From assembly GCF_024204665.1 (NCBI RefSeq), contig NZ_CP100355.1:930001-994000 (forward strand): 64,000 bases of DNA, in the 5' to 3' direction. Source of the stretch: Natronosalvus rutilus. GTDB taxonomy: Archaea > Halobacteriota > Halobacteria > Halobacteriales > Natrialbaceae. Within the stretch, counting starts at the first letter, position 1. Every line of letters begins with the position of its first letter. Below are positions 39,633 to 57,471 of this stretch, piece by piece. Made by a program: the position numbers and the translations under genes. The notes beneath the pieces were generated by a model. It searched no databases, had not been told where the DNA came from, and worked only from the letters and a program-made list of their open reading frames with translations.

Positions 39633-42278
39633 ATGACGAAACGACGCGCCCACCTCGAGATAACCGGGATGTCATGTGCGACGTGTTCGGGGTCCGTCGA
39701 GAGTGCGCTGGCGGATCTCGAAGGGGTCGAGGAGGCGAGCGCGAACTTCGCGACCGACGAGGGAGTCGTCGCCTACGACCCCGACGAGGTCAGCCTCGAG
39801 GAAGTCGTCGAGGCGGTATCGAACGCGGGCTACGAGGTCGCGACCGAAACCACCTCGATTCCCGTGATGGGGATGTCCTGTGCGACCTGCTCGGGAACCG
39901 TCCAGGAGGCGACGGAGGCTCTCCCCGGGGTCGTCTCGGCGGACGTGAACTTCGCCTCGGACGAGGCCCGGATCCGGTACAATCGGTCGGACGTCTCGCT
40001 GGCCGAAATCCGACGCGCGATCGAGGAGGCGGGATACGAACCCGCTGGCGGCGAGAACGAGGAAGACGAGGGCCAGCGCGAGCGTGCCGTCGAGCGCGAA
40101 CTGTCCCGGCAGCGACGGCTGGTGATCGGTGGCGGCCTGCTCACGCTGCCGTTCGTGCCGATCATGCTCGCGATGCTCGGACTCGTGCCGCCGCTCCACG
40201 AGGTGCTCGGGATCGGCGAGGGAGTCGTCGACTGGACCGAGTTCGCCATCGCGACGGTCATGATGGCGACCCTCGGCCGCGAGTTCCTTGTCGGCGCCTA
40301 TCGTGCGTTCGCGCACAACCGGCGGGCGAACATGGACACCCTCGTCGCCGTCGGTACCCTCGCGGGCTACGTCTACTCGACGGCCGTGCTAACGGTCGGG
40401 CTGACCGGCAACCTCTACTTCGAGGCCGTCGCGTTCATCCTCTGGTTCATCACGCTGGGCAACTGGCTCGAGGTCCGCTCGAAGGCGCGAGCGGGCAATG
40501 CCCTGCGGGAACTCCTCGAGATGGAGGCCGAGGACGCCACGGTCGTGCGGGACGGGACTGAAGTACAGGTGCCCCTCGAGGACGTCCAGGTCGGCGACGT
40601 GCTCAAGGTCCGCCCGGGCGAGCGGATTCCGACCGACGGCGTCGTCCTCGAGGGCCAGAGCGCCGTCGACGAGTCGATGTTGACCGGCGAATCGGTCCCG
40701 GTCGAGAAGGGCGAGGGCGACGACGTCGTGGGGAGCACGATCAACGAGAACGGCGTCCTGCTGGTTGAGGCGACCAAAGTCGGCTCCGAGACGGCGCTCC
40801 AACAGATCGTCGACCGGGTCAAGGAGGCCCAGTCGCGCCAGCCCGATATCCAGCGGGTGGTCGACACTGTAAGCGCCTACTTCGTCCCCGCGGTGATCGT
40901 CAACGCCGTGATCTGGGCCGTTTTCTGGGCGCTGTTCCCCGACGCTCTCTACGGCGCCTCGGCTTGGCTCGGCTCCTGGATTCCCGTGCTTGAGCCGGTC
41001 GGCGGCGGCCCGGTCGCGGGCGGCGTACCCGTCCTCGAGTTCTCGGTCGTCGTGCTCGCCTCCGCACTGTTGATCGCCTGCCCCTGCGCGCTCGGGCTGG
41101 CGACGCCTGCGGCGACGATGGTCGGCTCCACGCTGAGTGCGACCAACGGCGTCCTATTCAAGGGTGGCGACGTCCTCGAGCAGGTCCGGGGAATCGATAC
41201 CGTCGTCTTCGACAAGACCGGGACCCTGACCCACGGCGAGATGACGCTGACCGACGTGGTTGTCCTGGACGACGAAGCGAGCGGAGTCGCGGCCGACGGG
41301 GGGACCGACCCCCGCGCCGACGGCGGCGTCCTCGAGACGCGCGAGGAGTCCCTCGAATCGTTCGTCCTGGGAGCCGCGGCGGCCGCCGAATCAGGCTCGG
41401 AACACCCCATCGGGCGCGCCGTCGTCGAGGGCGCCGCCGACCGGGGCGTCGAAGTAGGAGAACTGGAGGACTTCGAGAACGTCCCCGGTCACGGGATCCG
41501 TGCGGAGACGGCCCGCGGGACGGTCGTGGTCGGTCGGCGAAAATTGCTCGAGGACGAGGGGATCGACCCCGAGCCAGCCGAAGAGGTCCTCGAGCGCCTC
41601 GAGCGCGAGGGGAAGACCGCTATCCCGGTCGCCGTCGACGGCACGTTGCTGGGCGTCGTCGCGGTGGCCGACGAGGTCCGCGAGAGCGCGACGGAGACCG
41701 TGGCCACCCTGCGGGAGCGGGGCATCGAGGTCGTCATGCTGACCGGCGACAACGAGCGGACGGCTCGAGCGGTCGCGGAGCGGGTGGGCATCGAGCCCGG
41801 GAACGTCCGGGCAGGCGTCCTGCCGGAGGACAAGGCGGACCACGTCGAGGACCTGCAGTCGGCCGGCGACGACGGTAGCGACGGCACGCGAGTGATGATG
41901 GTCGGCGACGGCGTCAACGACGCTCCCGCGCTCACGACGGCCCACGTCGGCGTCGCTATCGGCTCCGGGACCGACGTGGCCATCGAATCGGCCGACGTGA
42001 CGCTGATGCGCGACGACCCCGCCGACGTGCTCAAGGCGATCCGCATCTCGGAGGCTACCTTGCGGAAGGTTCGACAGAACCTCTTCTGGGCGTTGATCTA
42101 CAACACCACGCTGGTCCCGATCGCCTCGCTCGGGCTGCTCAACCCCGCCCTGGCCGGCCTGGCGATGGCGACCTCGAGCGTGAGCGTGATGACGAACAGC
42201 CTCTCGTTCGCCGCCTACGATCCCCACGAGGACCACCGGCCGCTGGTCACGCGGCCGCTCGAGTGGATTCGGCGGTAG
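39633..42278 (+). CDS. copA: Copper-exporting P1B-type ATPase, CopA-like
   Basis: The 881-residue pump has two N-terminal heavy-metal domains, each with GMSCATC (Cys15/Cys18 and Cys83/Cys86). Eight helices follow, with the CPC metal motif at Cys483 and Cys485 ([13 protein letters not shown]). The phosphorylated Asp527 lies in DKTGTLT, and [10 protein letters not shown] is near the C-terminus. CPC with twin CxxC domains points to Cu(I) export. An acidic insert (about 550-570) sits in the nucleotide-binding domain. No copper chaperone or CopR-like regulator is visible beside it. Confidence 0.95.
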
Positions 42279-42398: not shown

Positions 42399-42420
42399 AG
42401 CTGGGGCGTCAGTGACACAC

Positions 42421-43902
42421 ATGGGCCAGTTCACGCACGCCGACCTCGAGATCGCGTCGGCGTACGACGCCTACATCGACGGCGAACGGACCCCGCCGGC
42501 CGGGGGAGACTACAGCGACCTGATCGACCCGGCGAGCGAGGAACCCTTCACGCGCGTCGCCAGCTGCACCGAGGCCGACGTCTACGACGCCGTGCGAGCG
42601 GCGCGGCGAGCCTTCGCGGAGTGGCGAGAGACGCCCCCGGACGAACGGGGTCGACGGGTTTACGAAATGGGACGCATCATCCGCGAACACGTCGACGAAC
42701 TCGCCGCCCTCGAGAGCCTGGATCAGGGGAAGCCGCTATCGCAGGCGCGAAGCGACGTCGAGAGTGCGGCCCGCTACTTCGAGTACTACGCCGGGTTCAC
42801 CGACAAACTCGAGGGCAAGAGCATCCCGCTCGGTTCCGACACCCTCGATTTCACGATTCGCGAACCCTACGGCGTGAGCGCGCAGATCACGCCGTGGAAT
42901 TTCCCCGGGAATCTCTTCGCGCGTGGGACCGCCCCCGCGCTGGTCGCCGGGAACGCGGTCGTCGTCAAACCAGCGCCGAACACGCCCCTGAGTACGCTCA
43001 GGCTGACCGAACTGTGCGCGCAGGTGGGTGTTCCCGACGGTCTCGTCAACGTCGTTCCGGGCGGCGGGGAGACGGGGGCCGCGCTCACCGGTCACAAGGA
43101 TGTCGACACGATCACCTTCACGGGCAGCGTCCCGACAGGGCAGGCTATCATGCGATCGGCTGCCGACTCGATCACGCCAGTCACGCTCGAGCTCGGGGGG
43201 AAGAACCCCGCGATCGTGTTTCCAGACGCCGACCTCGAGGCCACGACGGAGACCATTTCGACGGCTATCTTCACGAACGCCGGACAGGTCTGTTCGGCCG
43301 CCGACCGGGCGCTCGTCCACGAGTCGGTCTACGACGAGTTCGTCGAACGAATCGTCGACCTGGCCGCGGACTACGAGCTCGCCCCCGGGGCCGAGGACGC
43401 CGACATGGGTCCGTTGGCCTCCGAGGAACAGTTCGAGAAGGTCACGAGCTACGTCGACCTCGGGCAACGCGAGGGCGCGACGCTCGCGGCCGGCGGCGGG
43501 ACGCCGGATCGGCCCGGCTACTTCGTCGAACCGACCGTCTTCGCCGACGTCGAACCCGGGATGCGCATCGAACAGGAGGAGATTTTCGGCCCCGTCCTCT
43601 GCGTCGTTCCGTTCGCCGACGAGACCGAGGCCCTCGAAATCGCCAACGGAGTCGACTACGGGCTGGTCTCCGGCGTCTTCACCGGGGACGTTTCGAGAGC
43701 AGGTCGACTGGCGAGGCGTCTCGAGGCGGGGAACGTCTACGTCAACGACTGGTTCGTCGACACCCAACAGACGCCCTTCGGCGGGTACAAGCGGAGCGGT
43801 ATCGGCCGCGAAAAGGGCCTGGAGGCCCTCGAGTCCTACGTCCAGACCAAGAACGTCGCCATCGCGCTCGAGGACGGCGGCGGCAACCTTCCGGGTGCGT
43901 GA
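42421..43902 (+). CDS. NAD(P)-dependent aldehyde dehydrogenase
   Basis: The 493-residue enzyme belongs to the hydrolytic aldehyde dehydrogenases. Catalytic Cys291 lies in NAGQVCSAAD and the general base Glu257 in LELGGKNP; ITPWNFPGN is the substrate/cofactor motif. It resembles succinate-semialdehyde and aminobutyraldehyde dehydrogenases. Its place at the edge of the uptake island suggests that it oxidises an aldehyde from the imported compound. It ends 187 bp before the binding-protein gene. Confidence 0.9.
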   Translation: MGQFTHADLEIASAYDAYIDGERTPPAGGDYSDLIDPASEEPFTRVASCTEADVYDAVRAARRAFAEWRETPPDERGRRVYEMGRIIREHVDELAALESLDQGKPLSQARSDVESAARYFEYYAGFTDKLEGKSIPLGSDTLDFTIREPYGVSAQITPWNFPGNLFARGTAPALVAGNAVVVKPAPNTPLSTLRLTELCAQVGVPDGLVNVVPGGGETGAALTGHKDVDTITFTGSVPTGQAIMRSAADSITPVTLELGGKNPAIVFPDADLEATTETISTAIFTNAGQVCSAADRALVHESVYDEFVERIVDLAADYELAPGAEDADMGPLASEEQFEKVTSYVDLGQREGATLAAGGGTPDRPGYFVEPTVFADVEPGMRIEQEEIFGPVLCVVPFADETEALEIANGVDYGLVSGVFTGDVSRAGRLARRLEAGNVYVNDWFVDTQQTPFGGYKRSGIGREKGLEALESYVQTKNVAIALEDGGGNLPGA

Positions 43903-44053
43903 TCGTTCGGTCCTCGTACCGGGAGAACGTCGTTCGGCGACTCCACGCTGAAGGCAGTTTTGATCGGTTGCCGATCGGATGTGGTGTAACAAATCCGGAT
44001 ATTTCCCACATGGGAGAAAATTTTCCACATTTATCATGCTGGTTATGGAAACT

Positions 44054-44061
44054 GTTTTATC
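44054..44061 (+). promoter_or_regulatory. TATA box of the solute-binding lipoprotein gene
   Basis: GTTTTATC is about 32 bp upstream of the ATG at 44090 and lies in unusually AT-rich sequence with a GAAAATTTTC palindrome (44016-44025). It supports the internal start rather than the longer frame from 43979. Confidence 0.5.
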
Positions 44062-44089
44062 ATCGAGCGATAATAGTGATACGAGCGTC

Positions 44090-45679
44090 ATGACTGACAT
44101 TTCCACACAAGGTGCGATCGACGCGTCGCGGCGACGGCTCCTCACGGCGATCGCGGCGGCCGGCGGGGTGAGTCTCGCGGGGTGTACCAGCGACGACGGG
44201 AACGGTGACGGTGGGAACGGTGGCAGCGGGGACGGTGGTGGCGGGAACGGTGGCGGCGGAACCAGCGTCTCGCTCGGCATCGGACGGGGCGCGTGGGACC
44301 TGATTCCCGCGCGCGACACCGACTTCGACTCCAACAAAGTGTACTCGCTGATCTACAACAACCTCGTGGACATTACCCCCGAAGGGGAGTACGTCCCGCA
44401 GCTGGCGAGCGACTGGGAACTCGAGAGCGACACCCAGTACGTCTTCACCCTCGAGGAGGGCGTCACGTTCCACAACGGCGAGGAGTTCACCGCCTCGGAC
44501 GTCCAGTACACCTACGACTGGATCGAGACCGAGGAGAACCCCCGGAAGAACTACGTAAGCGCGATTGAGGACGTCGTCGTCGAGGACGATTACACGGTCC
44601 GCTTCGACCTCGCACACCCCCACGCGCCGTTCCTCGACAACATCGAGAAGGTGATGTGGCCGCTCTCGGAGGAGGCCGTCACCGAACACGGCGAGGACTA
44701 CAACTCGAACCCGGTCGGGACCGGGCCGTACGAACTGGTCGAGTGGAACTCGGGACAGAACGCGATCCTCCGAAAGTACGACGACTACTGGCAGGACGAC
44801 CTGCCGAACATCGACGAAATTGAGTTCCGTATCCTCCCCGACGAGTCGTCGATGATCTCCCAGCTCGAGACGGGGTCGATCCAGGCTGTCGACCAGATGT
44901 CACCCCAGTACGTCGACCAGGTCGAGAGTGCCAACGGCATCTCGGTCCTGCGAACCGAGGACGTCAGTTCCGGTCGCGTCGACTTCAACACCGACGTCGA
45001 ACCGCTCGACGACCGCCGGGTCCGTCGGGCCATCGCGTGGGCGATCGACAAGGAACAGATCGTTCAGACGGTCCTGCAGGGGTACGGCGAGGCCGGGAAG
45101 TCGATCCTCCCGAGTTCCTTCGCGGCCTATAACGGCGACCTCTCGGACTTCAATCACCCGAACGGGGACCCACAGCAGGCCCAGGACCTGCTCGCGGAAG
45201 CCGGCCAGGAGAATCTCTCGCTCGAGATCATCAGTTCGACGACGACCCAGCACGAACAGGCGGCGACGCTCGTCCAGAGCATGCTCGAGGACATCGGTGT
45301 CGAGGCGAGCGTGCAGACGCTGGACGGCTCGACGTTCTGGACCCGCGAGCAGGAGGGTGACTTCGAGATTGCCGTCTCTAACTGGGAGTCGTTCGCCGAT
45401 CCGGACGAGTTGCTCTACCTCCACCACACCGATGGCCTCAACGTCTGGAACATCAGCAACGACGAACTCGACAGCTTGCTCGAGGAACAGCGCCAGACGA
45501 CGGACCAGGAGGCCCGACAGGAACTCCTCGACGAGATTCAGCAGATCATCTACGAGGAAGCGTACTCCGTCTACACTTACTACCCCGAGCGGCTCCAGGG
45601 CGTTTCGGACCGCATAGAGGGATTCGAACAGTATCCCCACGGCTCGTTCCGGTCGCTCCACGAGGCGACTTACGAGTGA
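44090..45679 (+). CDS. Peptide-type (family 5) ABC transporter solute-binding lipoprotein, Tat-exported
   Basis: This 529-residue protein would bind its ligand outside the cell for the transporter encoded at 53415-57471. The N-terminus has a twin-arginine signal (RRRLL, residues 14-18) and a lipobox LAGC with Cys32, followed by a Gly/Asn/Asp-rich linker. The mature part has NLVDITPEGEYVPQLASDWELE and GTGPYELVEWNSGQ, typical of DppA/OppA-like proteins. Family members bind peptides but also sugars, nickel chelates and other solutes, so the ligand is open. It begins in front of the SDR operon, 138 bp away. Confidence 0.93.
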   Translation: MTDISTQGAIDASRRRLLTAIAAAGGVSLAGCTSDDGNGDGGNGGSGDGGGGNGGGGTSVSLGIGRGAWDLIPARDTDFDSNKVYSLIYNNLVDITPEGEYVPQLASDWELESDTQYVFTLEEGVTFHNGEEFTASDVQYTYDWIETEENPRKNYVSAIEDVVVEDDYTVRFDLAHPHAPFLDNIEKVMWPLSEEAVTEHGEDYNSNPVGTGPYELVEWNSGQNAILRKYDDYWQDDLPNIDEIEFRILPDESSMISQLETGSIQAVDQMSPQYVDQVESANGISVLRTEDVSSGRVDFNTDVEPLDDRRVRRAIAWAIDKEQIVQTVLQGYGEAGKSILPSSFAAYNGDLSDFNHPNGDPQQAQDLLAEAGQENLSLEIISSTTTQHEQAATLVQSMLEDIGVEASVQTLDGSTFWTREQEGDFEIAVSNWESFADPDELLYLHHTDGLNVWNISNDELDSLLEEQRQTTDQEARQELLDEIQQIIYEEAYSVYTYYPERLQGVSDRIEGFEQYPHGSFRSLHEATYE

Positions 45680-45817: not shown

Positions 45818-46567
45818 ATGTCTGACAGTGACAGAAGCGTCCTCGTGACCGGGGCCGGGTCGGGGATGGGCGAAGCCACCGCCCGGCGGTTCGCGGCGAC
45901 GGGTGCGAACGTGCTGGTCGTCGACCTCGACGAAGAGGGGGCCGCGGCGACGGTCGGGGCGATCGAGGCCGACGGGGGGACCGCCCGGAGTCACGTCGCG
46001 GACGTGTCCGATCCAGCGGCCGTCGAGGGGATGATCGACCGCGCCGCCGAGGCGTTCGGCGGGCTGGACGTGCTCCACAACAACGCGGGCGTGCCCCAGG
46101 AGTCGACGCCCGTCGAGGACGTGACCGAGGAGACGTGGGACGCCACCGTCGACGTGAACCTCAAGAGCGCGTTTCTCGGGGCGAAGTACGCGGTGCCCGA
46201 ACTCAGGGAGAGCGACGCGGGCGTGATCCTCAACACGGCCTCGACCGCCGCGATTCGCCCGCGGACCGGGCTCTCGGCGTACGTCGCCTCCAAGGCCGGG
46301 ATGGTCGGCCTCACGAAGCAACTGGCGTACGAGCTCGCCGACGATGGGATTCGCGTCAACGCCATCTGCCCCGTCGCGACGGACACGCCGATGCTGCAGG
46401 ACTTCGCTGCCGGCGACCTGAGCGTCGAATCGATGCACGACACCATCCCGCTCGGGCGGCTCTGCGAACCAGAGGACGTCGCCGGCGCGGCTGTCTTCCT
46501 CGCCAGCGAGGACGCCTCGATGATCACCGGCACCGCCCTCGAGGTCGACGGGGGGCGCGACATCTGA
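45818..46567 (+). CDS. Short-chain dehydrogenase/reductase
   Basis: The 249-residue SDR has the NAD-binding TGAGSGMGEATA, NNAGVPQ, catalytic YVASK with Tyr and Lys and a serine in the preceding strand. The C-terminus ends GTALEVDGGRDI. It could oxidise a hydroxyl or reduce a carbonyl group in the imported compound. It is the first gene of the operon; the M20 ATG follows after 2 nt. Substrate cannot be read from the sequence. Confidence 0.92.
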   Translation: MSDSDRSVLVTGAGSGMGEATARRFAATGANVLVVDLDEEGAAATVGAIEADGGTARSHVADVSDPAAVEGMIDRAAEAFGGLDVLHNNAGVPQESTPVEDVTEETWDATVDVNLKSAFLGAKYAVPELRESDAGVILNTASTAAIRPRTGLSAYVASKAGMVGLTKQLAYELADDGIRVNAICPVATDTPMLQDFAAGDLSVESMHDTIPLGRLCEPEDVAGAAVFLASEDASMITGTALEVDGGRDI

Positions 46568-46569
46568 CC

Positions 46570-47835
46570 ATGACGACCCGAACTGCCATCGACGACGCCG
46601 TCGAGTCGCGCCAGGCGGACGGCCTCGAGTTCCTGACGGAGTTCCTCCGGATCGACACCGAGAACCCGCCCGGTCGAAACTACCGCGAGGGAGCCGAGTT
46701 CCTCCGGGAGCAACTCGAGGCCCGCGAGTACGACGTAGACGTGATCGACGTTCCCGACGAGGTCGTCGAGGAGCACTACCCCAACCGGACCGATCATGAC
46801 CGGATGAACGTCCTCGCTCGACTGGACGAGGGCCGAGAGGGGCCGGACGTCCACTTCACGGGCCACTACGACGTGGTCCCCGCGGGCGAGGACTGGGCCA
46901 CCGACCCCTACGAGCCGACCCTCGAGGACGGGAACCTCTACGCCCGCGGGTCCAGTGACATGAAATCCGGCATCGCCGCGAGCGTGCTGGCCGTCGACGC
47001 GCTTCGCGAGCTGGGTGTACCAATCGAGGGGTCGATTACCCAGAGCATGACCGTCGACGAGGAGACCGGGGGCTTCACCGGCCTCGGCGAACTGGTCCGG
47101 GAGGGACATATTTCCCGGGAGAACACCGACTACTGCATCTACACCGAGTGCTTCGACTCCTCGCGGATCTGCCTGGGCCACCGCGGCGTGTTGAAGTTCC
47201 GGGTTGTCACCCACGGCGAGAAAGCCCACGGCTGCATGGCCCACGGCGGGGAGAACGCCGTGATGGCGATGAACGACTTCCTCACCCGGATCGGCGAGTA
47301 TCGCGAGACCCTCCACGGACGAACGACGGACGAACCGGTCGTCCCTGCGGCGTCGGCCCGGGCGGACGTCTCCGCGACGATGATCGACGCGGGCTACTCC
47401 GAGAACGTGGTGCCCGACCGCTGTACGGCCACGTTCTACCGCGTGCTCGTCCCCGAGGAGAGCGTCGATGGCGCCCGCGAGGAACTCGAGGCGCTGATGG
47501 CCGAGACCGAGGCTGCGACGGGTGCGCGGGTCGGCTACGAGGAGATTATGTTCGCCGAACCCGCGCTCGTCTCGCGTGACTGCACCGTCGCCCAGACGTT
47601 CGCCCGAGAGATCGAACCCCACCACGGGCCGCCGGAGTACGTCGTCTCGCCGGGGTCGGACGACCAGCGCTTCGTTGTCAACGACGCCGGCATCGAGGAG
47701 TGCATCGTCTACGGGCCGGGTCTGCTCGAGCAGGCCCACGTCGAGGACGAGTACGTGCCCGTCGAGGAGGTCGTCACGGCTGCGAAGGTGATGGCCGCCG
47801 CGACGGCGGACCTGATGGGACATCTCGATGGCTGA
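46570..47835 (+). CDS. M20-family metallo-amidohydrolase (ArgE/DapE-like)
   Basis: M20 enzymes split amide bonds of N-acyl amino acids, dipeptides or carbamoyl compounds with two metals. The ligands and catalytic residues are in place: GHYDVVP, SSDMKSG, DEETGG, an acidic residue in YTECFD and the late His in LLEQAHVEDEYV. The 421-residue length is normal. Its stop overlaps the next ATG by 8 nt, so it is made together with the M20-like partner. A carnosinase-like or N-acyl-amino acid hydrolase activity fits the island. Confidence 0.92.
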   Translation: MTTRTAIDDAVESRQADGLEFLTEFLRIDTENPPGRNYREGAEFLREQLEAREYDVDVIDVPDEVVEEHYPNRTDHDRMNVLARLDEGREGPDVHFTGHYDVVPAGEDWATDPYEPTLEDGNLYARGSSDMKSGIAASVLAVDALRELGVPIEGSITQSMTVDEETGGFTGLGELVREGHISRENTDYCIYTECFDSSRICLGHRGVLKFRVVTHGEKAHGCMAHGGENAVMAMNDFLTRIGEYRETLHGRTTDEPVVPAASARADVSATMIDAGYSENVVPDRCTATFYRVLVPEESVDGAREELEALMAETEAATGARVGYEEIMFAEPALVSRDCTVAQTFAREIEPHHGPPEYVVSPGSDDQRFVVNDAGIEECIVYGPGLLEQAHVEDEYVPVEEVVTAAKVMAAATADLMGHLDG

Positions 47836-48793
47836 GTTGCCGTCGCCGGAAACGATTCGAGAGCGAGCACTCGAGGCGGGCGAACGTGGTTCGGACGGCT
47901 CCGACGAGGAAGCGGCCCGCGGCGGACGGGATCGGGGCGTCAACCTGCTCGTCGGCCCGCTCGACGACACCGATCCGCTGGCCGACCTCGAGGTCGCGAT
48001 CGATCCCGAAACCGGCGGGGCCGTCTATCGCGGACCACGGGCGGCCCGGGCGGGACTGCTCGCCGTCGCGGGAACCGTTGCCACAGACGAGGAGACGGCC
48101 GCCCGACTGTACTACCCCGACGCGGACCTCGCCGCAGACGGGCCCTGGCTCGTCCTCGAGCCTCTCGACGGACGACTTTCGACCGTCGTGCGGGGTCAAG
48201 CGAGGGTGTCGGTCGACCTCGAGCGCGCACCGGAGGCGAGCGCGAACTACCGGCGACTCGAGACCGACGAGAACCGACTGTCGGCCGTCCTCGAGGCCGC
48301 GAAGCCGTCCCACCCCCACTATCCGATCGAGGACGACCGGGACGGGGTGTTCACGACCGGAATGACCACCTTCTCGCTGACGGCCGTCGAGGCCGGTGAC
48401 GACCGGCTGACCGCCAGTGGTGAGGCCAGCAGCGAACGGCTAACGGTCGTCTTCGAGGCGGCGACGACGCCGACGACCGCCTTCGCCGAGGTCGAATCCC
48501 GGTTCGAATCCTGTCCGGGTGTCGAAGCGGTTCGCCTCGAGCGCGTCGCGGACGTCGACCGCGCCCGACCGTCTCGAGCGACGCGGACAGCAGTCGAGGG
48601 CGCCCACCAGGCGGTGCTCGGGGACTGCGCGTACGACTGGCTGGCGCCCGGATCGATCTTCGAGGCCGTGCCAACCCCCGAGAAGGTTGCGCTCGGAACC
48701 GGCGCGCCGGGCGAACCGTTCGACGCGGACGCGTTCACGATCGGGACGCGACTCCTCGAGGAGACGCTCGCCCGCGTGGAGGGATCGGTGTGA
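47828..48793 (+). CDS. M20-like protein without metal ligands (probable pseudoenzyme)
   Basis: The 321-residue protein follows the M20 order but the key residues are gone. LLVGPLDDTDPLAD stands where the metal His-x-Asp should be (His replaced by Pro), and YRGPRAARAGLLAV where the bridging aspartate of the DMKxG motif should be. Later parts (EPLDGRLSTVVRGQARV, LTVVFEAATTPTTAF, TAVEGAHQAVLGD) resemble the M20 dimerisation and C-terminal regions. It overlaps M20 by 8 nt and the LpxC-like gene by 4 nt. It may be a scaffold or regulatory partner. The relationship is my alignment by eye. Confidence 0.6.
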   Translation: MAELPSPETIRERALEAGERGSDGSDEEAARGGRDRGVNLLVGPLDDTDPLADLEVAIDPETGGAVYRGPRAARAGLLAVAGTVATDEETAARLYYPDADLAADGPWLVLEPLDGRLSTVVRGQARVSVDLERAPEASANYRRLETDENRLSAVLEAAKPSHPHYPIEDDRDGVFTTGMTTFSLTAVEAGDDRLTASGEASSERLTVVFEAATTPTTAFAEVESRFESCPGVEAVRLERVADVDRARPSRATRTAVEGAHQAVLGDCAYDWLAPGSIFEAVPTPEKVALGTGAPGEPFDADAFTIGTRLLEETLARVEGSV

Positions 48794-49575
48794 GGACGGT
48801 CGTCGCGCCCGTCGAGGGCGAGTACGTTCGCGTCGAATCCCGGTCGGAACCGGGCATCGAGGTCAACGGCATCCCGGCGACTCTCGAGTGCGTTCGCAAG
48901 GCGGACGTGCGCGTCGACCTCGTCGATCCGGACGCCGTCTGCACCGACGACGGCCGCGCGTTCGTGGTCGAACACGTCCTCGGCCCCCTCCGCCTCTGTG
49001 GTGTCACCGCCGCGTCCGTCACCGGAATCGCCAGCGAGTGGGACTTTTCCCGGCCGGAACACCGCTTCTGTTACGCGACGGCGCTCGGCCCCGACGCGGT
49101 CGTGAGCCACCCCGCGGGACTCCCGAATCCCGCGCTCGCGAAGGCCGTACGCGAGGTCGGCACGGAACCGATCGACGGCGAGACCCGCGCGACGCTCTCC
49201 GAGTCCGTGACCCGCGAGACCGATGTCGGCTCGATCACCGTCTCACCCGCCGAGACGGGATCGGGCGTCTCCCTCGACCTCGAATACGCCGGCGCGCGCT
49301 TCGGCGCGGACGTCCCCCACGACGGCGCTCGAGGCGACGTGATCGAGGCGATCACCACCGCGACGACGCCGTACCTCGCGCCCGACGCCGAGGTGGCCGT
49401 CACGCACGCCGCCGCCGACGTACTCTCGGACGTGGTGGTGCTCGGCGGCCTCGAGGACGTCCGCATCGAGGCGAGCCTGGGCGGGGCCTACCACGCCGAG
49501 ACGATTGGTGTAGCGCGACGTGCCCGCGAGCAGGGGGCCGTCACCGGGCTCGAACGCCCGGCGGCGGACCGGTGA
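48790..49575 (+). CDS. Divergent LpxC-like metallo-deacetylase candidate
   Basis: LpxC removes an acetyl group from a UDP-amino sugar in bacterial lipid A synthesis. This 261-residue protein keeps its landmarks: FVVEHVLG (Glu61, His62; E. coli Glu78, His79), THAAADVLSD (His206, Asp210, Asp214; E. coli His238, Asp242, Asp246) and His235, a possible match for His265, at similar spacing. The second half also follows the LpxC domain order (SESV, then SLDLEY). Lys239 is not kept. It has a GTG start overlapping the M20-like gene by 4 nt. Archaea make no lipid A, so another amide must be the substrate. Assignment is by motif alignment from memory. Confidence 0.55.
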   Translation: MRTVVAPVEGEYVRVESRSEPGIEVNGIPATLECVRKADVRVDLVDPDAVCTDDGRAFVVEHVLGPLRLCGVTAASVTGIASEWDFSRPEHRFCYATALGPDAVVSHPAGLPNPALAKAVREVGTEPIDGETRATLSESVTRETDVGSITVSPAETGSGVSLDLEYAGARFGADVPHDGARGDVIEAITTATTPYLAPDAEVAVTHAAADVLSDVVVLGGLEDVRIEASLGGAYHAETIGVARRAREQGAVTGLERPAADR

Positions 49576-49653: not shown

Positions 49654-50175
49654 ATGTCGAACACGCGCCCTCGTGGCGAAACCTTCGATCAGACGGACGT
49701 CGACCTCCTCGAGTACGTCGAGAATGACTTCGACGTCAACCTCAACGTCCTCTCGGAGGAACTCGGCCTGTCGAAATCCGCGATCCACTATCGACTCGAG
49801 AAACTCAAGGACCGGGGTGTTATCCGCGGGATCACGGCCGACCTCGATCCGGTGCCGTTCGGGCTGGACATGGTGGCGCTGACGGAGGTTTCGGTCACCC
49901 ACGAGCAGGGATACTCCGAGGACATCGGGACCGAACTCGCGGCGATCGACGGCATCGAACAGGTCTACTACACGATGGGCGACGTGGACTTCGTGACGAT
50001 CGTGCGCGTCCAGGACCGCGAGCAGATGAACGAGGTCATCGACGAAATCGTCGGCATCGAGGGCGTCAAGGAGACGTCCTCGCGGTTCGTCATGGACGAA
50101 ATCAAGAGCACTCCGCGGGTCGTCTCGGTGATGTCCGAGGAGATGAAGCGGGTCGTCCAGGACGGGGATCGCTGA
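49654..50175 (+). CDS. Lrp/AsnC-family transcription regulator
   Basis: The 173-residue protein has an N-terminal helix-turn-helix (DVDLLEYVENDFDVNLNVLSEELGLSKSAIHYRLEKL) and a C-terminal RAM ligand-binding domain (VALTEVSVTHEQGYSEDI). Such regulators sense amino acids. Position between the hydrolase operon and the divergent mmsA/aminotransferase pair makes it the likely regulator of the island. It has its own promoter with a direct repeat. The gene converges on mmsA. Confidence 0.93.
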   Translation: MSNTRPRGETFDQTDVDLLEYVENDFDVNLNVLSEELGLSKSAIHYRLEKLKDRGVIRGITADLDPVPFGLDMVALTEVSVTHEQGYSEDIGTELAAIDGIEQVYYTMGDVDFVTIVRVQDREQMNEVIDEIVGIEGVKETSSRFVMDEIKSTPRVVSVMSEEMKRVVQDGDR

Positions 50176-50215: not shown

Positions 50216-51685
50216 CTACGCGTTCGGCCAGCGCTCGATGTACACCGTCTCGTCGGTGTAGAACCGGACGACGTCCTCCGCCTGGGCGTGGAGGTCGCCG
50301 AAGAACGAGTCCTTTTGCCCACCGAAGTGGAAGAAGGCCATCGGTGCGGCCGTTCCCGCATTGACTGCGAGGTTGCCCGCCTCCGCTCGGTGGCGGAACT
50401 GCCGGGCCTCGGAACCGCTCTCGGTGAAGAGGCTCGCGGCGTTGCCGAAGTCGCTGCGGTTCATGACCTCGATTCCCTCCGCAACGCTCTCGACTGCCAT
50501 CGCGCCGAGGACGGGGCCGAATATTTCCTCTTGGCAGATGGTCATCTCGGGGGTCACGTCCCGGAAGAGACAGGGACCAAGGAAGTTGCCCTCGCCGTCG
50601 CGACCGACGTCCCGGCCGTCGACGACCAGTTCGGCCCCCTCCTCGAGGCCGGTTTCGACGTACTCTCGTACTCGCTCCTCGTGTTCGGGCGTGATCAGCG
50701 GGCCGACGGTAGTCTCGGGGTCGAGGCCGTCGCCGACGACCTGTTTCTCGGTCTCCGCGGCGAGGAGGTCGACGAACTCCTCGTAGACGCTCTCCTCGAC
50801 CAGCACGACGTCGTTGGCGAGGCAGCGCTCGCCCGAGCACGCCAGCGCGGAACTCACCGTCTTCTCGGCGGCGAACTCGAGGTCGGCGGTCGCGGAGACG
50901 ACGACGTGATTCTTCGCCCCGCCCTGGGCCTGAACGCGCTTTCCGTGGGCGGCCGCCTTCTCGTAGACGTGTTTCGCGACGGGGGTGGAACCGACGAAGG
51001 AGATGCCGGCGACGTCAGGGTGCTGGAGGAGGGCGTCGACGGTGTCGACGCTCCCGTTGACGAGCTGGACGACGCCGTCAGGGAATCTGGCCTCGTCGAT
51101 GAGTTCGAACAGCCGCTGGGTCACGAGCGGGTCCCGTTCGCTCGGTTTCAGAATGAAGCTGTTCCCGGTCGCGACCGCGTACGGGAGGAACCATAGCGGG
51201 ATCATGCCGGGGAAGTTGAACGGAGTAACGGCGGCGAACACGCCGAGGGGTTCCCTGACGGCCGTCTCGTCGATGTCGGGGGCGGCGTGCTGGACGTGTC
51301 CCGCCTGCATGAGCGTCGGGATGCCGCAGGCGACTTCGACGTTCTCGATGCCTCGACGGAGTTCCCCTCGAGCCTCGCCCATCGTCTTTCCGTGCTCGCG
51401 GACGAGGGTCTCCGTGAGTTCGTCCAGGTGTTCCTCGAGGAGGCGTTTCAGCTCGAACAGTGGCTGGATGCGCGCCTCGACGGGCGTCTCTCGCCAGTCC
51501 TCGAAGGCGGCCAGCCCCGCCTCGACGGCTGCGTCCACGTCCTCGCCGGTGCTGAAGCCGACGTATCCGAGGGCGTTGCCAGTCGCCGGATTCACCACGT
51601 TCTGGCCGTCCGCGCCCGGGGCGACCCACTCCCCGTCGACGTAGTTTTTCACCGTCCCGAACCGTTCGGTGGTATCGTGTGGCAT
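50216..51685 (-). CDS. mmsA: CoA-acylating (methyl)malonate-semialdehyde dehydrogenase
   Basis: The enzyme oxidises malonate or methylmalonate semialdehyde to acetyl-CoA or propionyl-CoA with loss of CO2. Catalytic Cys288 is in SGERCLAND, and the general base glutamate of ordinary aldehyde dehydrogenases is replaced (QAQGGAKN in place of LELGGK), the hallmark of the CoA-acylating group. Length is 489. It is divergent from the aminotransferase gene. Together they would turn beta-alanine or beta-aminoisobutyrate into acyl-CoA. Confidence 0.9.
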   Translation of the reverse strand: MPHDTTERFGTVKNYVDGEWVAPGADGQNVVNPATGNALGYVGFSTGEDVDAAVEAGLAAFEDWRETPVEARIQPLFELKRLLEEHLDELTETLVREHGKTMGEARGELRRGIENVEVACGIPTLMQAGHVQHAAPDIDETAVREPLGVFAAVTPFNFPGMIPLWFLPYAVATGNSFILKPSERDPLVTQRLFELIDEARFPDGVVQLVNGSVDTVDALLQHPDVAGISFVGSTPVAKHVYEKAAAHGKRVQAQGGAKNHVVVSATADLEFAAEKTVSSALACSGERCLANDVVLVEESVYEEFVDLLAAETEKQVVGDGLDPETTVGPLITPEHEERVREYVETGLEEGAELVVDGRDVGRDGEGNFLGPCLFRDVTPEMTICQEEIFGPVLGAMAVESVAEGIEVMNRSDFGNAASLFTESGSEARQFRHRAEAGNLAVNAGTAAPMAFFHFGGQKDSFFGDLHAQAEDVVRFYTDETVYIERWPNA

Positions 51686-51861: not shown

Positions 51862-53196
51862 ATGGTAACGGATAACTCGAGCGACGGGCTGAACGCCGTC
51901 GAGGCGATGGACAGGGAGTACGTCTTCGGGACGTGGGCCTACCAGAGCGAGGTCTCACCGACCCAGATCGTCGGTGGCGACGGCGCCCGGTTCACCGACG
52001 CTGACGGGAACGAGTACGTCGACTTCTCCGGGCAACTCATGTGTTCGAACCTCGGCCACTCGGCCTCGGCGGTCGAGGAGGCCATCGCCGAACAGACTCG
52101 AGAGGGTGCGTACTTCGCGCCGGGGTTCGCCACCGAGGCACGAGCCGAACTCGGAAAGAAACTCGCCGAGGTGACGCCGGGAAACCTCTCGAAGACGTTC
52201 TTCTCGACTAGCGGCACCGAGGCCATCGAGGCTGCGATCAAGATTGCGAAGTTCTACACGGGCAAGGACAAGATCATCTCCCGGTACCGCTCCTACCACG
52301 GCGCGACAGCGGGATCGATCAGCGTCACCGGCGACCCCCGCCGACTCGCCGCCGAACCCGGCATTCCGGGCGCGATCAAGGCGCCCGACCCCTACGCCTA
52401 CGGGTCGACACTCGACCCCATGGAGAGCCTCGAGTACATCGACGAAATGCTGATGCTTGAGGGCGACACCGTCGCGGCGGTGCTGGTCGAACCGGTCGTC
52501 GGTTCGAACGGCATCCTGGTCCCGCCGGCGGAGTACCTCCCGCGGCTCAAGGAGATCGCCCACGACCACGGCGCGTTGCTCGTCTGCGACGAGGTGATGA
52601 CCGGGTTCGGCCGGACCGGCGAGTGGTTCGGCAGCGACCTCTTCGACGTGACTCCCGACATCATGACGATGGCGAAGGGGCTCACGGGCGCCTACCAGCC
52701 TCTTGCGGCGACCGTCGTCACCGACGACATCGCCGCTCACTTTGAGGACAACATGTTCACTCACGGCCACACCTACGCGGGCCACCCGGTCGCCTGCGCG
52801 GCGGGACTGGCGGCCGTCGAGACCTACGAGTCCGAGGGTTTGATCGAGCGGGCGGACGAGGTCGGCTCGTACCTGAGCGACCGAATCGCCTCGCTCGCCG
52901 TCGACCACCCGAGCGTCGGCGACGTCCGCGGAACCGGGCTGTTCCACGGGATCGAACTCACGAAACGGACCGACGAGCGGGCCCCCTTCGGAACGCGTGA
53001 GGACAAACTCTCGAAGGGGTCGACCGTCGTCGACGAGGTCGCTGCCCGCGCGCTCGAGCACGGGACCTACGTCGCCAACATGATCAACACGCTCATCGTC
53101 GCGCCGCCGCTGACGATCACCCGGGCGGAGATCGACGAGGCCGTCGCGGCGATCGACGCGGCCCTCGAGGTCGCCGACGCGGCGATGGAGGCGTAA
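51862..53196 (+). CDS. Class III PLP-dependent aminotransferase
   Basis: The 444-residue enzyme belongs to the omega/beta-amino acid transaminases. The PLP lysine is Lys272 in MAKGLTGAYQPL; SGTEAIEAAIKIAK and CDEVMTGFGRTG are family motifs. Related enzymes act on beta-alanine, beta-aminoisobutyrate, taurine or GABA. With the divergent mmsA, beta-alanine or beta-aminoisobutyrate is the best guess. AT-rich TATA-like sequence (AATATTAA near 51824-51831) precedes it. It leads into the permease genes, 218 bp away. Confidence 0.9.
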   Translation: MVTDNSSDGLNAVEAMDREYVFGTWAYQSEVSPTQIVGGDGARFTDADGNEYVDFSGQLMCSNLGHSASAVEEAIAEQTREGAYFAPGFATEARAELGKKLAEVTPGNLSKTFFSTSGTEAIEAAIKIAKFYTGKDKIISRYRSYHGATAGSISVTGDPRRLAAEPGIPGAIKAPDPYAYGSTLDPMESLEYIDEMLMLEGDTVAAVLVEPVVGSNGILVPPAEYLPRLKEIAHDHGALLVCDEVMTGFGRTGEWFGSDLFDVTPDIMTMAKGLTGAYQPLAATVVTDDIAAHFEDNMFTHGHTYAGHPVACAAGLAAVETYESEGLIERADEVGSYLSDRIASLAVDHPSVGDVRGTGLFHGIELTKRTDERAPFGTREDKLSKGSTVVDEVAARALEHGTYVANMINTLIVAPPLTITRAEIDEAVAAIDAALEVADAAMEA

Positions 53197-53414: not shown

Positions 53415-54365
53415 ATGAATTTCCTTCGCTACGTCGCGGTGCGGACGCTCCAGACGGTCCCCGTGCTGGCCGGGGTCTCCGCGGTCGTGTTCCTGATCGT
53501 CCACGCGGCACCCGGCGATCCGGTCGTCAACATGCTCGGCATTCAGGCGACCGAGGAGAACATCGAGGCGGTCCGGGCCGCCCACGGACTGGACCAGCCG
53601 CTGTACATCCAGTACTTCTCGTGGCTCTCGAACGTGCTCCAGGGCGACTTCGGCCGATCGCTCGTCCAGGGCCGGGCCGTCTCGGACCTGATCGTGAGCC
53701 GTCTGCCAGCGACGCTGTTCCTCGCCGTCTCCTCGATGGTCGTCGCCATACTCATCGCGATTCCCGCCGGTATGGTGAGTGCAGTCCGCAAGGGGTCGAA
53801 GACCGATTTCGCGGTCACGCTCGGGGCGCTCTCGGGCATCTCGATCCCGAACTTCTGGCTCGGTCTGCTCTTAATTCTCTTCTTCGCGACGTCGATCGAC
53901 CTCTTTCCCGCGGGGAACTACGTCTCGCCGATGGACGACCCCGTCGGCGCGCTCGAGAGCGTCTTCCTGCCGGCGGTGACGGTCGGAACCGCCTACGCCG
54001 CTCTGCTGACGCGCCAGACACGCTCGGCCGTCCTCGAGAACCTCCGCTCCGATAGCGTGCGGATGGCAAAGGCGAAGGGACTCTCGGCGCGCCGGATCAT
54101 GACCGCCCACGTCCTGAAAGGAGCGCTGTTGCCCGTCATCACCGTCGCCGGATTGCAGTTCGGCTACCTCCTCTCGGCCACCGTCGTCGTCGAGCAGGTG
54201 TTCGCCTGGCCCGGCATGGGGCGACTGATCTGGTTCGCCGTCCTCCAGCAGGACTACCCGGCGGTACAGGGGGCCGTCCTCGTCGTCGCCACCCTGTTCG
54301 TCGCGATCAACCTGCTCGTCGACCTCACGTACGGCTACCTCGACCCGCGGGTGAGCGCCCAATGA
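53415..54365 (+). CDS. ABC transporter permease, DppB type
   Basis: The 316-residue membrane protein has six helices and the EAA-loop region near GLSARRIMTAHVLKGALLPV. LAGVSAVVFLIVHAAPGDPV at the N-terminus is typical of DppB/OppB permeases. It pairs with the overlapping DppC-type permease (4 nt). The likely partner binding protein is encoded 8 kb upstream at 44090. GGAGG lies 15 nt before the ATG, and TATA-like boxes are at 53341 and 53374. Confidence 0.94.
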   Translation: MNFLRYVAVRTLQTVPVLAGVSAVVFLIVHAAPGDPVVNMLGIQATEENIEAVRAAHGLDQPLYIQYFSWLSNVLQGDFGRSLVQGRAVSDLIVSRLPATLFLAVSSMVVAILIAIPAGMVSAVRKGSKTDFAVTLGALSGISIPNFWLGLLLILFFATSIDLFPAGNYVSPMDDPVGALESVFLPAVTVGTAYAALLTRQTRSAVLENLRSDSVRMAKAKGLSARRIMTAHVLKGALLPVITVAGLQFGYLLSATVVVEQVFAWPGMGRLIWFAVLQQDYPAVQGAVLVVATLFVAINLLVDLTYGYLDPRVSAQ

Positions 54366-55269: not shown

Positions 55270-57471
55270 ATGAGTACGAACACGAGCACGAATACGAGCA
55301 CGGGTGACCCACTGCTATCGGTCGACGGACTGACGACGGAATTCGCGACCGATGAGGGCGGCATTCGCGCCATCGAGGACGTGAGCTTCACCCTCGAGCG
55401 CGGAGAAACCCTCGGCATCGTCGGAGAGAGCGGTTCCGGCAAGAGCGTCACCGCTCACTCGATTATGCGGCTACTCGAGGACAACGGCCGGATCGCGTCG
55501 GGCTCGGTCACGTTCGACGGCGCCGATCTGACGACGATGTCCGACTCGACGCTGCAGTCGATCCGCGGATCGGAGATCGCCATGGTCTTCCAGGATCCGA
55601 TGACCTCGCTCACGCCGGTGTTGACCGTCGGCACGCAACTCCTCGAGACGCTCCACCAGCACCGGGAGCTGTCCGACGAGGAAGCGCGGGAGACGGCGCT
55701 CTCCCTGCTCGAGCAGGTGCGCCTGCCAGACCCCGTTGACGTCTTCGAGTCCTATCCGCACGAACTCTCCGGGGGTCAGCGCCAGCGGGTCCTTATCGCG
55801 ATCGCCATCTGCTGCGATCCCGAGGTGCTGATCGCCGACGAACCGACGACGGCGCTGGACGTGACCATCGAGGCCCAGATCCTCGAGTTGCTCGAGGACC
55901 TCCGGGACTCCCGCGACCTCAGCGTCGTCCTCATCACCCACGACCTGGGGGTCGTCGCGGAGTCGACCGACCGCGTGGGCGTCATGTACGCCGGACAGAT
56001 GGTCGAGCAGGGGTCGACCGACCGAGTGTTCACCGAACCCCGTCATCCCTACACGGCAGGCCTGCTCCGATCGATGCCGCGGCTGACCGACCACGTTCCC
56101 GAACTGCTCGAGGGAACCGTTCCCCAGCCCGGAAACCGGCCGAGTGGCTGTAACTTCGCCCCACGCTGTCCGTACGCGACGGCGGCCTGCGAGGCGGACG
56201 ATCCGCCGCTCGAGCCGGTCGAGAGAGGCGACGGCGTCCCAGCGGGGACCTCCGAGACCGCCGCTGAAATTACGGCCGAAACCGCCGCTGGAACCGCACC
56301 GTCGCCGACCGACGACGGCGCCGTCCAGCGAGCGGCCTGCATTCGAACCGACGAGATCGGCGTCCTCGAGCCCGTTCCCGCCGAGGCCTCCGAGACGGCT
56401 AGGTCGCGGACGACCGACGTCGGCGACCCCATCCTCGAGATCGAGAACGTGCGAAAGGAGTTCGACACCTCGACCTCGCTGCTCGATCGCCTGCTCCCGA
56501 AGGGATCGCCGCCGGTGCAGGCCGTCGACGGCGTCTCGCTCTCGCTTCGCGCGGGCGAAACCGTCGGACTCGTCGGGGAGAGCGGCTCCGGTAAGACGAC
56601 CCTCGGGCGCCTCTGCATCGCTCTCGAGGAGCGGACCGAGGGCGACATCCTGCTCGACGGCGTCTCCCTCGCGGAGACTCCCGACGAGGAACTCCGCCAG
56701 CGAGTCCAGTTCGTCTTCCAGGACCCCAGTTCGTCGCTCAACCCGCGCCAGCGAGTCGGGCGCATCCTCGGGTTCGCGGTCGAGAAACACGCGACGCTGG
56801 CGCCAGACGAGACGGTCACCGACCGCGTGATCGACCTGCTCGAGGAGGTGGGTCTCGACGCCGAGACCCGTCACCGCCACCCCCACGAACTCTCCGGCGG
56901 GCAGAAACAGCGCGTCGGCGTCGCCCGGGCGCTCGCGGTCGATCCGGACGTCCTGATCGCGGACGAGCCGACCAGCGCGCTCGACGTGAGCGTCCAGGGC
57001 CAGATCCTGGCCCTCCTCGAGCGGATCAAGGCCGAACGCGACCTCTCGATGATCTTCATCAGTCACGACCTCTCGGTCATCCGCCACGTCTCCGACCGCG
57101 TTGCCGTGATGTACCTCGGCCGACTCGCGGAGACCGGGCCTGTCGACGCGCTCTTCGCCGATCCGAAACACCCCTACACGGAGGCGCTGCTGAGCGCGAT
57201 TCCCGACCCCGACCCCGATCCCAATCCGCAGCGGTCGAGCGAGCGGATCACTCTCGAGGGCGAGATTCCGGACCCGCGATACCCGCCGACGGGGTGTAAC
57301 TTCGCCAGCCGCTGTCCGGCGGTCATGCCGAAGTGTCGCGAACACGACCCGGCGCTCGTCCCGGTCGACGGCGATCAGCGTGCGGCCTGTTTCCTCCACT
57401 CGACGGCCACCAGGGGCGACGAGGAGCCGCCGGAGGACGTTCTCGAGGCGACCCACCGTGGCAGCGACTGA
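55270..57471 (+). CDS. Fused double ABC ATPase (DppD-DppF type)
   Basis: The 733-residue protein joins the two ATPase subunits that are separate in bacteria. The first cassette has [17 protein letters not shown] and ADEPTTALD; the second has [18 protein letters not shown] and ADEPTSALD. Each is followed by the oligopeptide-type C-terminal domain with Cys-rich segment ([15 protein letters not shown] and [15 protein letters not shown]), which may hold an FeS cluster. A Thr/Ala/Glu-rich linker (about 325-375) separates them. Both Walker A motifs look intact. Confidence 0.95.

Follow-up and report, generated by a model that had tools for sequence, protein, structure and literature searches.

LpxC (UDP-3-O-acyl-N-acetylglucosamine deacetylase) is the zinc enzyme that starts the synthesis of bacterial endotoxin (lipid A). 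Because it is an important target for antibiotics, there is broad interest in its minimal catalytic core. To our knowledge, archaea make no lipid A. According to published work, the fold of LpxC is unique and resembles no other known architecture (PMC6281622), its sequence is not homologous to those of other zinc enzymes (PMC7962117), and its gene has served as an outer-membrane marker (PMC3603455). In the E. coli enzyme, zinc is bound by H79, H238 and D242, E78 acts as the general base and H265 as the general acid, T191 stabilises the gem-diolate, and the acyl tunnel is formed largely by Insert II (PMC13342928), while K239 of the HK-Phi-Phi-D motif binds pyrophosphate (PMC7962117, PMC13342928). 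Here, we describe gene Q, which lies in a 64,000-nucleotide stretch of the genome of the haloarchaeon Natronosalvus rutilus (contig NZ_CP100355.1, positions 930,001 to 994,000; the whole stretch is called the window below). Its product is likely a remote, shortened zinc amidohydrolase (N-deacylase) of the LpxC superfamily, which would serve a catabolic pathway of haloarchaea by working on a small N-acyl compound, as one half of an obligate pair with the product of the adjoining gene, U.

Relationship of Q to LpxC

Q is very likely a remote homologue of LpxC, a conclusion drawn jointly from lines of evidence that are weak in different ways. Homologues were found at 13 loci of Halobacteria, the window included, with Halorussus and Halobacterium among them. 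In a hmmscan search of these 13 members, seven matched the LpxC family PF03331 weakly (best E 0.0012), and any other family was matched by one member at most. None reached the curated Pfam cut-off, no match was found in the window's own genome, and 0 of 295 genomes sampled from the phylum gave one above the cut-off. The PF03331 search, which an earlier note on this DNA had proposed as a check, gave nothing for the window Q and weak matches for its relatives. We rejected the idea of Q as a Pfam-recognisable LpxC, as only other members and profiles match. A PF03331 match in another haloarchaeon (G074, L069) was discarded because it runs antisense to a MaoC-like gene (judged by eye).

When the Q family profile was searched against PDB sequences, A. 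aeolicus LpxC ranked first with both motifs in register, at an E of about 1, which is not significant. Alignment of the same profile with an alignment of 11 LpxC proteins in hhalign gave a probability of 80% and an E of about 1e-5 over 164-213 collinear columns, in which E-H and HxxxDxxxD again line up with their LpxC counterparts. The score of 44.8 was reached by none of 200 column shuffles (maximum 27.9), and reversed and unrelated profile controls stayed below 1%. A template-free AlphaFold2 model of Q, built from seven homologues and no LpxC sequences, is of low confidence, but LpxC accounts for every one of the best 50 PDB matches that Foldseek listed for it (E from 6.0e-8, probability 1.00). 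VIA-align gave LpxC a Z of up to 12.7 over 198 residues against 7.4 for the best other fold, the runner-up being EF-G domain IV (Z 7.0-7.4), which has the S5-domain-2-like fold in common with LpxC. By these comparisons on the low-confidence model and by the profile-profile alignment, Q has the two-domain fold of LpxC, and the LpxC fold and homology put forward in the earlier note are borne out by the Pfam matches, the shuffle-controlled profile alignment and the structural comparison alike. We found no paper on archaeal LpxC homologues in a literature search that left subscription journals mostly outside its reach.

The active site can be followed residue by residue. The earlier note had read E61, H62, H206, D210, D214 and H235 in a 261-residue open reading frame as counterparts of E78, H79, H238, D242, D246 and H265 of E. 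coli LpxC; the numbering is exact, and the E. coli residues, confirmed on the LpxC sequence itself, occur in the same order. The likeness also goes beyond chance, given the register of the motifs, the shuffles and the invariance of these six residues. Together with T193, they are shared by all 13 Q sequences, down to 44% identity, in an alignment with 62 invariant columns out of 261. The zinc-ligand positions H79, H238 and D242 align with H62, H206 and D210, the predicted ligands of Q, while E61 and H235 are aligned to E78 and H265, H235 being offset by a one-residue gap shift in hhalign. In both proteins the E-H pair sits on a helix of domain I and H-x3-D-x3-D, identically spaced, on a helix of domain II; both have the catalytic Thr and His, and both are about 250-300 residues long. 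The distance from Asp to the last His is 21 residues in Q and 19 in LpxC, and aligned identity is about 14-18%.

Q also differs from LpxC. Insert II is missing, a loss that the earlier note overlooked: the catalytic Thr is followed by His after 13 residues in Q (T193-H206) but after 47 in E. coli LpxC (T191-H238). Directly after H206, where LpxC has K239, the 13 sequences carry Ala, Ser or Trp, and both the N-terminal GxGLHxG motif and the DGS motif of LpxC are absent. Q has instead a conserved loop of its own, residues 83-114, which is unlike any LpxC and in which W84, R88-P-E-H-R92, H107, G110-L111 and N113-P114 are invariant. Unlike LpxC, Q comes with a partner, U, and belongs to a catabolic operon, in an archaeal host without LpxB (no match to PF02684 in the window's genome; other lpx genes were not searched). 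Q thus has an LpxC-like fold and, by analogy, probably LpxC-like chemistry, but because Insert II, K239, GxGLHxG and DGS are lost and LpxB is absent, it is not a lipid A enzyme and should not be classed as LpxC.

The gene is maintained, as dN/dS (the ratio of nonsynonymous to synonymous substitution rates) is about 0.32 and about 0.27 against two congeners, which indicates purifying selection. Its spread is nevertheless patchy: a full-length match was present in 7 of 391 sampled genomes of the class, and the phylum sample contained Q in congeners only, besides one short weak match. Relatives were sought in plasmids and viral contigs and none were found. Weak profile matches (E 1e-4 to 1e-3, less than half of Q covered) were put down to chance and excluded from the family. 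One genome, G189, carries two U-Q pairs, the first inside a full operon (L026) and the second, a divergent one, standing alone (L027:8998-10712, minus strand); the Q of the latter has 44% identity to the window Q and keeps every catalytic residue. The Q of genome G359 (L032:333-1184, minus strand) has a low-complexity insert (DDTRADDTGADDTRSDGT...) immediately ahead of the RAFVVEH motif, at a point where the length of Q varies.

The partner protein U and the surrounding operon

The gene for U sits directly upstream of Q, between it and an intact M20 gene. The stop of U and the GTG start of Q share four nucleotides (GTGA, 48790-48793), an overlap present at most loci. Of 391 class genomes, 7 carry both genes and none carries just one of them. 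U matches no family in Pfam or NCBIfam, M20 families included. Its model is of good confidence (predicted local distance difference test [pLDDT] 84, predicted template modelling score [pTM] 0.80), and its top matches in the PDB are all M20 enzymes of the DapE/ArgE kind (E 4.4e-13; Z 18.5 for 4q7a). The predicted fold is like that of M20 deacylases (DapE, ArgE, LysK, beta-alanine synthase) over the full length, lid/dimerisation domain included, although U is shorter, at 321 against about 360-420 residues. The five-ligand metal set of M20 (H, D, E, D/E, H) is not found in U: an alignment of 12 sequences has zero invariant Asp or Glu and a single invariant His (H162), and the near-invariant acids are located in the lid domain or the C-terminal helix. 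Since U has no conserved ligand set, whereas the adjoining M20 protein retains GHxD, DEE and the other ligand motifs, U is most likely a pseudo-M20 protein. Two other origins were considered and rejected: as a sequence-detectable paralogue of the operon M20, U reached an hhalign probability of 0.1% in local alignment, and global alignment gave nothing useful; as an LpxC-like protein it also reached 0.1%. The second U copy of G189 (L027:9732-10712, minus strand) starts with MLRTTRRFALKLVGGGTASVMGSGVAA, which resembles a twin-arginine signal peptide and is not seen in other U proteins; export of U without Q would be odd, or the called start may be wrong.

The order M20-U-Q, all in the same direction, is found at 10 of the 13 loci. 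At an 11th, the M20 gene stops about 90 bases short of a contig end and a fragment of U opens another contig. Many loci add genes for a short-chain dehydrogenase/reductase (SDR), an aldehyde dehydrogenase (ALDH) or a dipeptide/oligopeptide ATP-binding cassette (ABC) transporter, and several add a class III aminotransferase, an Lrp-type regulator and a methylmalonate-semialdehyde dehydrogenase (MMSDH). The recruitment to a catabolic operon suggested in the earlier note is therefore supported. Its coupling of Q with an M20 hydrolase is right in that the hydrolase is present, but U, the obligate M20-like partner, lies between the two and was overlooked. An M20 orthologue (68-73% identity) is present, adjacent or not, in all seven Q-bearing genomes tested. 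From this context we infer that the operon serves to take up and degrade an amine or beta-amino acid bearing an N-acyl or N-carbamoyl group.

Genome G480 shows a different arrangement. Its M20, SDR, aminotransferase, MMSDH and regulator genes share a region (L072:1-19001) with genes for an Amidohydro_3 protein, a sodium:solute symporter and two additional M20 hydrolases, a setting that points to the catabolism of N-carbamoyl compounds or cyclic amides. The U-Q pair of this genome (L066:9360-10900) stands away from the M20 operon, beside nadA/nadB/nadC-like NAD biosynthesis genes (by eye). In the window, a heavy-metal P-type ATPase (39633-42278, by eye) lies ahead of the operon on the same strand.

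Table 1. Genes and sites of the Q locus, in positions of the window
Feature	Position	Strand	Remarks
Q, LpxC-superfamily protein (very likely)	48790..49575	+	261 aa, GTG start
Glu61-His62 of Q	48970..48975	+	Equivalents of E. coli LpxC E78 (general base) and H79 (zinc ligand); invariant in 13
Residues 83-114 of Q, family-specific loop replacing the LpxC IxDGS segment	49036..49131	+	Alignment
Thr193 of Q	49366..49368	+	Proposed LpxC T191 equivalent; placed by I-x(2)-A-x-T context; invariant
Site of absent LpxC Insert II (acyl tunnel)	49369..49404	+	Thr193-to-His206 spacing
His206-x3-Asp210-x3-Asp214 of Q	49405..49431	+	Equivalents of LpxC H238, D242 (zinc ligands) and D246; invariant
His235 of Q	49492..49494	+	Equivalent of LpxC general acid H265; invariant
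U, M20 (DapE/ArgE)-fold protein without conserved M20 metal ligands	47828..48793	+	321 aa; predicted fold, alignment
Intact M20-family (ArgE/DapE-type) deacylase	46570..47835	+	Ligand motifs kept
SDR	45818..46567	+	
Dipeptide/oligopeptide-type ABC transporter substrate-binding protein	43979..45679	+	
ALDH	42412..43902	+	Best match betaine/aminobutyraldehyde type, below curated cut-offs
Lrp/AsnC-type regulator	49654..50175	+	Best match LysM-type regulator, below cut-off
CoA-acylating MMSDH	50216..51685	-	TIGR01722, above cut-off
Class III aminotransferase	51862..53196	+	
ABC transporter permease, Opp/Dpp type	53415..54365	+	
Fused Dpp/Opp-type ABC transporter ATPases	55270..57471	+	

Proposed function and its alternatives

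By analogy with LpxC, one Zn2+ would be held by His62, His206 and Asp210 of Q. Glu61 would activate the zinc water for attack on the amide carbonyl, and Thr193 and His235 would stabilise and protonate the tetrahedral intermediate. Lacking Insert II, Q would have no acyl tunnel, and lacking an equivalent of K239 it would have no grip on a pyrophosphate; its substrate is therefore expected among small N-acylated amines or amino acids, not among UDP-lipids. U, its metal site lost, would probably serve as a binding or scaffold subunit for Q alongside the intact M20 deacylase. The pathway may then run from import through N-deacylation, for which both M20 and the Q-U pair would be responsible, to transamination and finally semialdehyde oxidation. 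A broader proposal, which we regard as rather doubtful, is that an older amidohydrolase superfamily includes LpxC as one of its branches and Q as another, archaeal and independent of lipid A. In this proposal, Q, the inactive U and the intact M20 protein would together make up a single multi-subunit amidohydrolase in which two unrelated metal-hydrolase folds are combined.

Several points weigh against reading Q as an N-deacylase of LpxC descent that works with U in this pathway. As a single sequence, the window Q matches nothing in Pfam, NCBIfam or the PDB sequences. Its model has a mean pLDDT of 50 and a pTM of 0.45. LpxC structures were part of the training of AlphaFold. The M20 likeness of U rests on its predicted fold, with no relation to the operon M20 at the sequence level. 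At L027 and L066 the U-Q pair is separate from the M20 gene, so a shared pathway is not certain, though an M20 orthologue is present in both of these genomes.

Different roles for Q can also be considered. It might have the LpxC fold and bind metal without being an independent enzyme: as a subunit of the M20 deacylase, connected through U, it would have a regulatory or structural task. Strict U-Q pairing, usually behind an intact M20 gene, and the existing resemblance of U to a dead M20 would suit such a role, but we think it unlikely: none of the seven LpxC catalytic positions varies, even in the divergent second copy at L027, and a purely structural protein need not keep its general acid and base. 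It is more improbable still that Q is an LpxC-superfamily metal hydrolase cutting a bond other than a linear amide, by ring opening of a lactam or hydantoin-like compound or by cleavage of an ester. The sole listed LpxC-fold enzyme is an N-deacetylase (PMC6281622), even if the active-site loop of Q resembles no LpxC and the G480 gene set has the company expected of N-carbamoyl or cyclic-amide catabolism. Convergence of the motifs on another protein of ribosomal-S5-domain-2-like fold, without homology to LpxC, could draw on the low model confidence and on the match of one domain to EF-G domain IV, but it is extremely unlikely, as both LpxC domains are collinear with the model, LpxC stands 5 Z units over EF-G, and the sequence profiles match LpxC independently of structure.

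Implications for the LpxC fold

An N-deacylase of LpxC descent in a haloarchaeal catabolic operon therefore remains our preferred reading of Q. The strict pairing of Q with an apparently dead M20 protein is an additional puzzle that can be tested. If true, a tunnel-less archaeal relative of LpxC would give the fold a second function, a computational claim that is specific and easily tested; it would also offer a natural experiment on the role of Insert II and would bear on the source of the key enzyme of the lipid A pathway.
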